Assembly (NCBI GenBank): GCA_023381415.1
Contig: JAMCUN010000002.1
Span: 12,932-58,270, forward strand
DNA: 45,339 nucleotides
Source of the DNA: Thermoplasmatota archaeon
GTDB taxonomy: Archaea; Thermoplasmatota; Thermoplasmata; Thermoplasmatales; GCA-001856825
Reading direction: 5' to 3'
In this document: positions 22,895 to 30,183 of the stretch, one piece after another
Layout: the number at the start of each line of letters is the position of its first letter
Numbering within the stretch: position 1 is the stretch's first letter
Made by a program: the position numbers and the translations under genes
The notes under the pieces: model-generated
The model's database searches: none
What the model saw: only the letters and a program-made list of their open reading frames with translations
What the model was told of the DNA's origin: nothing

Positions 22895-23899
22895 CTAAAC
22901 GTACTTATTCTTGGCTCCGACCAGTATGGCTAATACCTTTATATCATTTTTCATTGACTCGTCTATCCTGGCACCCCATATTATCCGCGCGTTGGGATTT
23001 ATCTTTTTCTTGATCTCCTCCAGGACAGTATGTGCCTCTTCCACTGACATGTTTGAACTTCCAGTCACAGATACAATCGCGGAAGTCGCAGTTGAAACCT
23101 CTAGGTCCAGCAGGGGTGAATTTATTGCTTTCTTCGCAGCTTCCATAGCCCTCTCCTGCGACCCTGACTGTCCCATACCTATCATGGCGGTCCCTCCATC
23201 CTTCATTACCGTCTTTAGGTCGTTGAAATCAAGGTTGACCAGACCAGGCTTGGTGACCAATTCTGTCAATCCCTTGATAGATTTCATGAGAATCTCGTCA
23301 GCGAACCTGAAAGCTTCGTTGAGAGGGAGCCTAGGGACTATCTCAAGTAGCTTGTCGTTAGGGATCACAACTATGGTGTCTGATTTTTCCTTGAGTTTCT
23401 CAAGTCCCCATAACGCATTCTCCTTTCTCATCGAGCCTTCAGATTTGAAGGGTGTTGTGACTACTGATATCACAAGTGCTCCTGCATTCTTTGCAATCTC
23501 GGCGACTACAGGAGCGGAGCCAGTCCCTGTCCCTCCTCCCATTCCTGCAGTTATGAAAACGATGTCCGCGCCTTCCACGGCTGCGTTTATGTCTGCCTCA
23601 GCCTCCCTCGCAGACATCTCGCCAACTTGCGGTATCGCGCCAGCACCCAATCCCCTTGTGGTTCTCTTCCCTAGAAGTATCTTCTTCGATGCCTGTGTAA
23701 GCAGGAGATGCTGAGCATCGGTATTAGCCGCAATGATATCCGCACCCTGTATCCCTTCCTCCATGATACGCGTTATGGTGTTTGAACCTGAACCTCCACA
23801 GCCAAAAATCTTGATGCTTGTCTTCAGGCTTTTCAAAACTTCTATTAACTCAGCGTCTGTGTCTTGAAATGATTCATCATTCGGCATACTAACTACCAT
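22895..23899 (-). CDS. ftsZ: Cell-division GTPase FtsZ
   Basis: 334 residues, full two-domain FtsZ. Nucleotide loop IFGCGGSGSNTITRI (31-45), tubulin signature GGGTGTG (121-127), and synergy loop T7 NLDFND (222-227) providing the catalytic Asp, followed by a complete C-terminal domain (TAMIGMGQSG onwards). It forms the division ring. There is no long tail after the domain. ATG 23899 lies about 23 bases from a strong TATA-like ATATAAATAT (complement of 23917-23926), so the operon ftsZ-secE-spt5-rpl11-rpl1-rpl10-rpl12 probably begins here with a leaderless message. A second, atypical FtsZ-like gene is at 28565-29335. Confidence 0.96.
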   Translation of the reverse strand: MVVSMPNDESFQDTDAELIEVLKSLKTSIKIFGCGGSGSNTITRIMEEGIQGADIIAANTDAQHLLLTQASKKILLGKRTTRGLGAGAIPQVGEMSAREAEADINAAVEGADIVFITAGMGGGTGTGSAPVVAEIAKNAGALVISVVTTPFKSEGSMRKENALWGLEKLKEKSDTIVVIPNDKLLEIVPRLPLNEAFRFADEILMKSIKGLTELVTKPGLVNLDFNDLKTVMKDGGTAMIGMGQSGSQERAMEAAKKAINSPLLDLEVSTATSAIVSVTGSSNMSVEEAHTVLEEIKKKINPNARIIWGARIDESMKNDIKVLAILVGAKNKYV

Positions 23900-27851: not shown

Positions 27852-28164
27852 TCTGGCACATCGAAGACTGCCTAAATAATCTTTACAATTGCAGGAAGTA
27901 CACACCTTTGCATGACTGGATTCGACAAATGCAAGACACCGTGGTACGAAATCGCACATTCAGTTTGACAAGCAATCAAGATTGTGTCGAACAGAATCAG
28001 AACAGTAACTTCTGGAATATATCAAAAATTTCCTGTATAATAGCCTTTAAAGAATATTTTTCAATTAAATTTATTTTAGGGAACAGAGATATTTCTTGTA
28101 CGTCTTGGTTAGAAATGTTTATATACAGTATACTTCATATCTATTCTAAGAGGATTGGTTCCAG
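27852..28164. other. Divergent promoter region between aIF2-beta and the RHH/FtsZ-like pair
   Basis: No gene in 313 A/T-rich bases. TTTATATACAG at about 28118-28128 is the best TATA candidate for the RHH gene, giving a leader of roughly 10-20 bases before GTG 28165. No clear palindrome is seen. Confidence 0.5.
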
Positions 28165-28584
28165 GTGGATTCTAGTAGTACCAGAAGGATTGCACTTCGT
28201 CTGACGCCGCAGGAAGACGACGAGATTAACGACTTCCTCAGCACATCGCTAAGGTATAAGACAAAGTCAGAATTAATCAGAGCAGCAGTCTATGCCTTCA
28301 TACAGCGCCCCCAAGTTCAGACCTCGGTGGAAGAAAGCGAAGTAAAGCTGTCAAAAGCAACTCTCAACACTTTGGATCAGATGGTAATGAAAGGGCTCTT
28401 CAAAGATAGGTTCGACGCGATAGAATTTATCATAAGGAAGGTAAATGAGGAGCACTTCTTGCCTATGTGGCTCAACAAACTGGTCAGGGGTTACATTGAC
28501 GACAGGAACCTTTTGAATTTTGACGATCTTCCCTTCGAAGACAAGGGGGAGGAGAGACAGAGGGGTGAAAAAAGTGATAGATGA
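28165..28584 (+). CDS. Tandem ribbon-helix-helix protein, CdrS/CdrL-like cell-division regulator candidate
   Basis: 139 residues from GTG 28165. Two RHH motifs can be read in one chain. The first is TRRIALRLTPQEDDEINDFL with KTKSELIRAAVYAFI (residues 6-46); the second is VKLSKATLNTLDQMVMKGLF with DRFDAIEFIIRKV (60-93). One polypeptide could thus form the two-stranded DNA-binding ribbon by itself or pair into larger arrays. The last 25 residues are charged. It overlaps the start of an FtsZ-like gene by 20 bases, so they are co-translated. In haloarchaea the RHH protein CdrS is encoded with and controls ftsZ, which makes a cell-division role the best inference here. Confidence 0.8.
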   Translation: MDSSSTRRIALRLTPQEDDEINDFLSTSLRYKTKSELIRAAVYAFIQRPQVQTSVEESEVKLSKATLNTLDQMVMKGLFKDRFDAIEFIIRKVNEEHFLPMWLNKLVRGYIDDRNLLNFDDLPFEDKGEERQRGEKSDR

Positions 28585-29335
28585 AGATAGGATTGGGCTT
28601 TTGTACAAACTGAAAAACGGTCTTAGCGGTGATCGAAAATTTCTCGAACCTTCCATCGTATGCGTAGGAATAGGTGGAGGGGGATGCAATATAGTGTCCG
28701 AACTTAGTCACAAGAGAAGGGAGGTGAATCTCTACTGCTTGAATACTGATGCGCTCTCGAATGCAAAGAGAAGCGACGTCGTTTCGCTTAACGTCGGTGC
28801 AGACTACATCATGAACAACAGGGACTCGGGCGGATATGTTGAAGTAGCGAAGAAAGCGTTCAAGGAGGAGTCTGCAGTAATTGATGTCCAAGTTTTGAGG
28901 AGGGCAGATCTGGTGCTGGTTGTCACAACTCTCGGAGGGGGAACTGGTACAGGAGGAACTGTCGAGATGGTAAAACTACTGAAGTCTGAGAACACACCTT
29001 TCAAGGTGTTCGCAGTGAGACCGTTTGAATTCGAGGACAACAGGAAGGAAGTTGCCGACAGGGCACTAGCTCAACTGAGGAAGATAACAGACCATATAGA
29101 GGTTTATGACAACAATGAATTCGAAACCCTTGGGGAAATAAATTCCAGGATCAAGGAAGATATGGACGCAACAATTGAGAGTCAGCTTAAGCTCTATGAT
29201 ACACTTTACGGGAAGTACAGCGACTCGTTTGACAGGATCGTAGAGGAAACGCTTGCAGAAGTATTGACCGAAAGAGTCCTTAGCATTGAGCTAGAAGTAG
29301 AGCCTGCAGAGACTGAAATCACTAAACCTCAATAA
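28565..29335 (+). CDS. FtsZ-like GTPase-domain protein lacking T7 loop and C-terminal domain
   Basis: 256 residues from GTG 28565, which has GGGGGAGGAGAG (28547-28558 region) as a ribosome site; a longer ATG start at 28520 would lie within the RHH gene and adds non-family sequence. IVCVGIGGGGCNIVSEL (31-47) is the nucleotide loop, LNTDALSN (59-66) the T2-like strand, and TLGGGTGTGG (122-131) the tubulin signature. Beyond the next two strands the protein becomes helical and charged (RIKEDMDATIESQLKLYDTL) and ends. The NxDxxD T7 motif and the beta-sheet C-terminal domain present in FtsZ at 22895-23899 are absent. It could bind GTP and cap or regulate FtsZ filaments but should not complete the hydrolysis site. 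Role inferred. Confidence 0.85.
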   Translation: MKKVIDEDRIGLLYKLKNGLSGDRKFLEPSIVCVGIGGGGCNIVSELSHKRREVNLYCLNTDALSNAKRSDVVSLNVGADYIMNNRDSGGYVEVAKKAFKEESAVIDVQVLRRADLVLVVTTLGGGTGTGGTVEMVKLLKSENTPFKVFAVRPFEFEDNRKEVADRALAQLRKITDHIEVYDNNEFETLGEINSRIKEDMDATIESQLKLYDTLYGKYSDSFDRIVEETLAEVLTERVLSIELEVEPAETEITKPQ

Positions 29336-29433: not shown

Positions 29434-30183
29434 ATGTCAAGTCTGAAGGTGCTTCTGAATCAAAATAACCCGGTAAGAGGAGTCGAGGAAAACAAGAGGA
29501 GAATAAAGGAATCAATGGACAAAGATTTCGACGTGGCTATCTTCCCGGAACTGTTCTACTCCGGCTACATGAAAAGAGACCTCCTGAACGTTTATGATCT
29601 CGACACTGGATTTGCAAGAAAAATTCAGAAAGAACTGGAAGGGAGGATGCTTATTTTTGGCTCACCATTCAGAGACGGATTCTTATACAACAGTGCGGTT
29701 GTTATGACCGAAGACTCACTCAACGTATACAAGAAGAGACATCTCCCAAATTTCGGTCCCTTCGAGGAAATGAGGTACTTCTCCAAGGGGAATAGCCCCT
29801 TGACCGTTGATTTCAAAGGATTCAGGATTGGCATAGAGATATGCTACGACCTATTTTTCGAAGACTCGGTAGAGAAAGGGGTGGACATAATAGTCAACAT
29901 ATCAGCGTCCCCATTCACGTCGTATCAATTTTTCGAAAAGATGTTTCCTGCCAGGGCTATAGAGTACCAGGCATACTTCACATACGTGAATGTCGCAGGT
30001 TTAAGCAGAAATCAGGTGTTCTGGGGAGGAAGTAGAGTCCTTGATCCCGAGGGTAAGGAGATACTGAGCCTCAAAAGATTCGAAGAAGACTCTGGTATAG
30101 CGGTTCTGGAATCTTCATTACTCGAACTAAGCCGAAGGAAAAGGAGAGTGCTGAGCGAGGTACTTGATGACACTGCGAAATGA
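29434..30183 (+). CDS. Nitrilase-superfamily carbon-nitrogen hydrolase
   Basis: 249 residues. The Glu-Lys-Cys catalytic triad is visible: E39 in IFPELFYSGY, K101 in YKKRHLPN, and C137 in GIEICYDLFF. The chain continues with VNISASPFTSYQFFEKMFPARAIEYQAY, the usual C-terminal half. Members hydrolyse amides; the closest look is to glutaminase or amidase branches such as those feeding NAD synthetase, but no NAD synthetase gene is adjacent. It overlaps by 17 bases the next gene, a membrane protein. Substrate unknown. Confidence 0.88.
   Translation: MSSLKVLLNQNNPVRGVEENKRRIKESMDKDFDVAIFPELFYSGYMKRDLLNVYDLDTGFARKIQKELEGRMLIFGSPFRDGFLYNSAVVMTEDSLNVYKKRHLPNFGPFEEMRYFSKGNSPLTVDFKGFRIGIEICYDLFFEDSVEKGVDIIVNISASPFTSYQFFEKMFPARAIEYQAYFTYVNVAGLSRNQVFWGGSRVLDPEGKEILSLKRFEEDSGIAVLESSLLELSRRKRRVLSEVLDDTAK

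Follow-up and report, generated by a model that had tools for sequence, protein, structure and literature searches.

The analyzed stretch of DNA, in the following referred to as the window, comprises 45,339 nucleotides of a Thermoplasmatota archaeon. It contains two overlapping genes, coding for a ribbon-helix-helix (RHH) protein and a short FtsZ-like protein (short FtsZ), which are preceded by a putative promoter and a candidate operator region. The features of this module, together with a canonical FtsZ outside of the module used for comparison, are listed by position, strand, and description with its basis:

27909-27993, no strand assigned: candidate operator region, an array of TGTWTGACA-type half-sites (upstream alignment, conservation)
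27962-27970 (+) and 27985-27993 (-): AGTTTGACA and TGTTCGACA, the best kept half-site pair in the window genome
28118-28126 (+): TTTATATAC, probable TATA box of the RHH-short FtsZ operon (sequence, largely conserved in the genus alignment)
28165-28584 (+): tandem RHH DNA-binding protein, CdrS-like, 139 aa, GTG start (ORF, NCBIfam, dN/dS, homologues)
28186-28305 (+): RHH unit 1, residues 8-47, with the basic strand RRIALRL (alignment, AlphaFold2 helices 15-27 and 34-47)
28336-28449 (+): RHH unit 2, divergent, residues 58-95 (AlphaFold2 helices 64-75 and 82-95)
28545-28554 (+): GGGGGAGGAG, probable ribosome-binding site of the short ftsZ, located within the RHH gene (sequence)
28565-29335 (+): short FtsZ-like protein, 256 aa, GTPase domain only (PF00091, TIGR00065, AlphaFold2, Foldseek)
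28667-28690 (+): T1 nucleotide loop GIGGGGCN, residues 35-42 (translation, alignments)
28934-28954 (+): T4 tubulin signature GGGTGTG, residues 124-130 (translation, alignments)
29129-29278 (+): single long helix, residues 189-238, replacing H7, T7, and the C-terminal domain (AlphaFold2; no NxDxxD)
22895-23899 (-): canonical FtsZ of 334 aa containing both T7 (NLDFND) and FtsZ_C; located outside the module and used for comparison (Pfam, motif search)

The coordinates and lengths of both reading frames and their overlap of 20 bases agree with an earlier note on this DNA, given GTG 28565 as start of the short ftsZ. The in-frame GTG 28574, being the sole usable start in a close relative (G007/L007), is an alternative that would shorten the overlap to 11 bases, leaving the exact start uncertain; start codons in this analysis are generally good to within a few residues. 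Pfam analysis of the short FtsZ returned exclusively PF00091, above cut-off (residues 30-186, E 4.3e-18, 67 bits). In respect to the equivalog TIGR00065, the protein stayed below the cut-off of 295.2 with 78.8 bits, compared with 405.7 for the full FtsZ of the window. The nucleotide-binding motifs T1 and T4, which the earlier note had described as kept, were both found. In line with its further claim, searches for the T7 loop NxDxxD and for FtsZ_C (PF12327) gave no match in the short FtsZ, which stops at residue 256, but detected both in the full FtsZ at 22895-23899 (PF12327, 1.3e-29). A frameshift hiding a C-terminal domain, named in the earlier note as one finding that would overturn its reading, was looked for and rejected: no FtsZ_C-like frame is present past 29335, and the orthologues share the same length and end point. 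Downstream, a nitrilase-like gene begins at 29434. The structure of the short FtsZ alone, predicted by AlphaFold2 from a 22-sequence alignment (pLDDT 78, pTM 0.73), displays a complete Rossmann GTPase fold followed by the helix 189-238, where T7 and the C-terminal domain would be expected, and a disordered tail of approximately 20 residues. Foldseek assigned FtsZ 1rlu as the best match of this model (E 5e-13), with alignments to FtsZ structures extending over ~160-215 columns of targets of ~270-330 residues.

Comparison of the RHH protein with the NCBIfam CdrS model NF058555 yielded a match below cut-off (24.5 bits versus a cut-off of 100, E 2e-5), accompanied by a weak match to VapB, likewise below cut-off (0.0019). 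Its AlphaFold2 model, although of low pTM (0.30), contains two helix-helix units with a strand-like stretch before each, plus an extra helix; the first unit is basic and represents the best conserved part of the protein. Direct profile comparison of both halves gave only a weak match (prob 15%, E 0.0017), but the repeat is obvious in paralogues such as L107 and L102. Predicted secondary structure and paralogue sequences thus support the presence of two RHH units within one chain, as the earlier note had proposed. Foldseek searches with the model revealed no significant match, with structural matches to ParD below significance.

Purifying selection acts strongly on both genes (dN/dS ~0.05, where dS was computable). 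The pair was found in 10 out of 11 genomes of the window's genus, which contains 'Thermoplasmatales archaeon I-plasma', the missing genome being only 52% complete. The four remaining members of the family carry it as well, and within this family no adequately complete genome is without it. Considering this selection together with the recurrence across genomes, the short ftsZ does not represent a broken gene. Extension of the search to other Thermoplasmatales, as suggested in the earlier note, showed that the pair recurs in five of the six families examined in the order as well as beyond it. It was seen in f3, f4, and f5 and, with an eroding partner, in f6 (f1-f25 being family labels of this analysis). 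The genomes are mostly metagenome-assembled. A tandem-RHH homologue was detected in 110 out of 117 genomes of the order, and among the 51 genomes at least 90% complete it was present throughout. A short FtsZ adjoins the RHH gene in all 21 named RHH loci of the genome collection, and the RHH gene overlaps or adjoins its partner in all loci of the order examined. In other orders of the class, 19 out of 20 sampled loci carry a FtsZ of 226-300 aa devoid of the C-terminal domain downstream of the RHH gene, a proportion applying to tandem-RHH loci rather than to all genomes, as this sample was picked non-randomly via the RHH profile; the remaining locus carries a full-length FtsZ at this position. 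The f6 locus shares its neighbors with the window (pyrB, pyrI, the RHH pair, eIF2beta, PIN, and riboflavin kinase) and is therefore orthologous to the window locus; the gene neighborhoods of f1 and f4 are unlike. On profile level, the f6 partner is still clearly homologous to the short FtsZ in most FtsZ-bearing genera (hhalign 99.1%, 2e-18; E-values from small ORF sets are local).

This distribution bears on a toxin-antitoxin-like interpretation, in which an RHH antitoxin and a short FtsZ acting as division inhibitor would be kept for addiction. The RHH-first overlapping operon with its candidate operator array upstream, the weak VapB match, and the non-significant ParD matches fit such a pair. 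Mobile toxin-antitoxin modules, however, differ from a locus that no adequately complete genome of the genus or the order lacks and that is syntenic in f1 and f6; moreover, the RHH gene stays where its partner decayed. We regard this interpretation as highly improbable.

The region upstream of 28165, proposed in the earlier note for mapping of the RHH binding site, was aligned over 300 bp for nine genomes of the genus. The alignment revealed the array of TGTWTGACA-type half-sites at 27909-27993, with half-sites in both orientations (in G001 at -258, -248, -237, -227, -206, and -183) and steps of ~10, 11, 10, 21, and 23 bp, corresponding to helical spacing. In genome-wide scans, conducted as pattern searches, the paired box with zero to one mismatch occurred solely at the RHH locus in eight out of nine genomes of the genus; the window genome shows two mismatches. 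Box 1 gave one further match in the genome-wide search (TCAATGACAATATTTGACA in G001/G002/G003), which was discarded, being coding and located inside a thioredoxin-reductase-like gene in G002. The half-site, defined in the window's genus, was subsequently tested out of sample in other families. In all eight f4 genomes tested, it occurs in excess upstream of the RHH gene (two to four sites versus 0.2-0.6 expected); enrichment at this position was also seen in one f3 genome and in f5, whereas the half-site was not found there in f6. In the four f4 genomes having the site TTTTGTCATAAAAAT, the exact copy occurs at the RHH locus only. Since the gene upstream of RHH in f4 differs from that in the window and is co-directional, yet the half-site is present, the sites belong to the RHH operon and travel with the RHH gene. 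For the same reason, an operator of the divergent eIF2beta gene appears unlikely. Judged by its conservation, the array is a candidate operator of the RHH protein itself.

The order of array, RHH gene, and NTPase gene, along with the phasing of the repeats, also resembles partition loci. RHH proteins act as centromere binders in such systems (ParR, SegB), and the module might accordingly be read as a DNA-segregation cassette, in which an iteron array, a centromere binder of the RHH type, and an NTPase resembling tubulin work together as in TubZRC, ParMRC, or SegAB. With TubZRC plasmid partition it shares the succession of repeats, DNA-binding gene, and tubulin-like GTPase gene. TubZ, however, is a full polymerizing tubulin and TubR is not an RHH protein, whereas the short FtsZ has neither T7 nor a C-terminal domain, as needed for a filament of the FtsZ/TubZ type. 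Furthermore, the GTP motifs are degenerate in several families, the array is confined to a single chromosomal place, and the locus is chromosomal and vertically inherited, rendering a segregation function very improbable.

Sites of a related kind were found at other ftsZ genes. For the C32-type ftsZ, CGTCATACA directly follows the TATA box, both in the window genome and in each of the eight relatives (three genera) that were aligned; most of these genomes contain an additional upstream TGTCNGACA-type site (L218 was left out of this alignment, as it could not be aligned and is probably upstream of another ftsZ). For the C29-type ftsZ, CGTCWGACATACG follows the TATA box in 10 out of 10 genomes. 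These conserved palindromic GACA-type sites at canonical ftsZ genes are located upstream of 1315 in L001 and upstream of 1405 in L002, with further examples in L219-L235. They may be considered candidate operators of the CdrS family in Thermoplasmatales, in agreement with the finding that Haloferax CdrS binds upstream of ftsZ1 (PMC8406309). No GACA-type site was found within 300 bp upstream of the window's own ftsZ (23899), where the earlier note had proposed to map RHH binding. The interpretation given in that note is borne out in three respects, namely the conservation of the pair as a module, the kinship to CdrS and to cdrS-ftsZ2, and a cis-regulatory connection to division genes via the candidate sites at two ftsZ promoters; control of this nearby gene is not supported.

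A second tandem RHH protein of 113 aa overlaps a strongly degenerate FtsZ-like ORF of 289 aa (L100:2819-4022 (+), G000:C9; also L105 and L109). Upstream of this f1 operon of RHH and degenerate FtsZ lies a conserved TGTCWGACA palindrome. Palindromes of this type also precede the cdrS-linked full ftsZ (L102, L130) and another f4 ftsZ (L021-L025). An RHH of the same kind is located beside a full-length FtsZ in f4 (L102) and beside pheT without FtsZ in f6. The natural reading would be that ftsZ genes are controlled by two RHH paralogues related to each other, through two GACA operators that are likewise related.

As a separate observation, the window genome contains a second GTPase-only relative of FtsZ with 183 aa (L005:1396-1947 (+), G000:C23; orthologues L206-L217), its length being ~250 aa in sister genera. 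In this protein T1 is kept (GVGGAGVN) and T4 replaced by SPAGxFSS. It is conserved in 13 genomes of the family and encoded directly downstream of an Orc1/Cdc6-type gene (neighbor observed in 12 fetched loci); here, part of a division protein is stably linked to the gene of a replication initiator.

One possible role of the short FtsZ is that of an end cap or poison of FtsZ, its intact nucleotide (top) face sitting under the T7 face of a canonical FtsZ subunit and stopping further addition, with the RHH protein setting the dose. The predicted structure, with a whole GTPase fold and a missing bottom face, the intact T1 and T4 in the window's genus, and the three canonical FtsZ in the window genome are compatible with this. 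The f6 family points in the same direction: in genera without an FtsZ_C protein (g9, g11, g19), the partner ORF comprises 157-179 aa without FtsZ similarity in 11 out of 11 loci, whereas FtsZ-bearing genera retain a recognizable short FtsZ in 16 out of 19, with g16 and g21 as exceptions. This pattern suggestively ties the short FtsZ to FtsZ, perhaps via few independent events. The f10 genomes contradict a general coupling. Five of them (G208, G157, G120, G202, and G210) have no credible PF00091 match other than the short FtsZ linked to RHH, and a search for an FtsZ_C protein in G208, G157, and G120 found none; T1 and T4 are intact in the short forms examined from G208, G157, G120, and G202. 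Two NxDxxD matches in f10 short forms were rejected as T7, both being situated in acidic tails. Since in these five genomes the short FtsZ is the only recognizable FtsZ, capping is not its general role, and the earlier note's proposal of a partner of FtsZ does not hold in this general form. In addition, members of f3, f4, f5, and f6 are devoid of T1 and/or T4 despite the presence of canonical FtsZ. Altogether, we consider the cap unlikely.

Alternatively, the short FtsZ could polymerize via another interface, namely its long helix, forming a minimal division or cytoskeletal filament. The 50-residue helix might self-associate, and the five f10 genomes with no other recognizable protein of the FtsZ superfamily would be consistent with such a function. 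Against this stand the erosion of the GTP motifs in many lineages, the coexistence of two to seven canonical FtsZ in most genomes having the short FtsZ, and the fact that no membrane-anchor or SepF-type tail motif was noticed in the protein. A filament of this kind is therefore improbable.

Of 41 short forms, 30 retain T1 and 24 retain T4, showing that nucleotide handling is dispensable in some lineages, the partnership with RHH not. As the GTP motifs erode while the RHH pairing stays, and as five f10 genomes retain the pair with no canonical FtsZ detected, the main partner of the short FtsZ is probably the RHH protein.

Two observations on the FtsZ inventory of these families were made in parallel. 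Four f6 genomes of 96-99% completeness (G022, G039, G019, G050) have no detectable protein of the FtsZ superfamily, although the RHH gene is present together with a partner ORF reduced in size; as far as their gene content indicates, this part of f6 may divide without FtsZ. In f10, L202 and L203 (G136, G150) encode a further compact FtsZ-like protein (266-282 aa), which contains GGGTG(S/T)G and whose tail is similar to an FtsZ C-terminal domain.

In a tree of the GTPase domain, the short forms are placed on one side and canonical FtsZ on the other, with the cdrS-linked full FtsZ between them, at moderate support (SH-aLRT 82-89) and with long branches. The simplest reading, for which the tree is only suggestive, is a derived copy of cdrS-ftsZ2 whose FtsZ2 would have lost T7 and the C-terminal domain. 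The pairing of an RHH (CdrS) gene with ftsZ2 is already known across archaea (PMC7439475; PMC8178401, 'ftsZ2 frequently with parD'). With cdrS-ftsZ2 (Darnell et al. 2020, PMC7439475; Liao et al. 2021, PMC8406309), the pair shares a CdrS-like RHH directly upstream of an FtsZ gene and candidate operators at other ftsZ genes, comparable to the binding of Haloferax CdrS upstream of ftsZ1. It differs in its FtsZ, which compared with full-length FtsZ2 is devoid of T7 and the C-terminal domain, in the tandem RHH of 139 aa (Haloferax CdrS has at most 70 aa), and in the putative operator array preceding the operon itself. For part of the genomes, the published cdrS-ftsZ2 search relied on FtsZ2 matches >200 bits; the short forms (67 bits for PF00091, 79 bits for TIGR00065) are unlikely to reach this threshold.

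Similar to the short FtsZ, FtsZl1 (Makarova and Koonin 2010, PMC2875224) combines the FtsZ/tubulin GTPase core with the absence of a recognizable T7 and of the FtsZ C-terminal domain. In contrast, FtsZl1 is long (1051 aa in the type member), contains a coiled coil and a helical domain, and belongs to a membrane-remodelling gene set, whereas the protein described here has 256 aa, an RHH partner, and, after the GTPase core, just a single helix followed by a disordered tail of 20 residues. Canonical archaeal FtsZ1 and FtsZ2 share the GTPase fold, T1, and T4, but not the truncation and the separate tree branch. A literature search, with most subscription papers outside its scope, did not turn up any account in which a GTPase-only FtsZ accompanies an RHH gene or occupies the cdrS position. 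Consequently, of the new division module proposed in the earlier note, the RHH-ftsZ2 pairing as such had already been described; new are the GTPase-only form of FtsZ2, the phased TGTWTGACA array, and the conserved GACA sites at two ftsZ promoters.

In the model we propose, whose chances we judge to be evenly balanced, both its own operon and ftsZ genes are regulated by the RHH protein, the short FtsZ assisting as nucleotide-responsive co-regulator. The RHH protein would bind the array and thereby regulate its own operon, and it or its CdrS paralogue would also control ftsZ genes. The short FtsZ would bind GTP where its motifs are intact; having no T7 and no bottom face, it is expected to complete no hydrolysis site and to form no filaments of the FtsZ type. 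By binding to the RHH protein it could alter DNA binding of the latter with nucleotide state, and where canonical FtsZ exists, it might possibly dock with its nucleotide face on FtsZ. It would thus serve as sensor or co-regulator tuning the expression of division genes. Two points speak against this co-regulator model: the second RHH of the C9 locus could be the one acting at the ftsZ promoters, and in f6 lineages without FtsZ the partner is shrunken beyond recognition, so that its function is perhaps tied to FtsZ after all.

Knowledge on the control of FtsZ amount and timing in archaea dividing by FtsZ comes almost entirely from haloarchaea. The module is small, conserved, and testable, consisting of a DNA-binding protein, a GTPase without filament parts, and named candidate sites at its own and two ftsZ promoters. 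The natural series from full FtsZ2 via the GTPase-only form to decayed remnants in turn illustrates what part of FtsZ stays once polymerization has been given up. More broadly, and somewhat more tentatively than the model itself, a GTPase domain of the tubulin superfamily freed from filaments may have become the nucleotide-gated co-regulator of an RHH transcription factor, a class-wide switch reading GTP or FtsZ state and setting division genes. If the co-regulator reading is true, these acid-loving archaea would have recruited a piece of their division machinery into a genetic switch acting on division genes.
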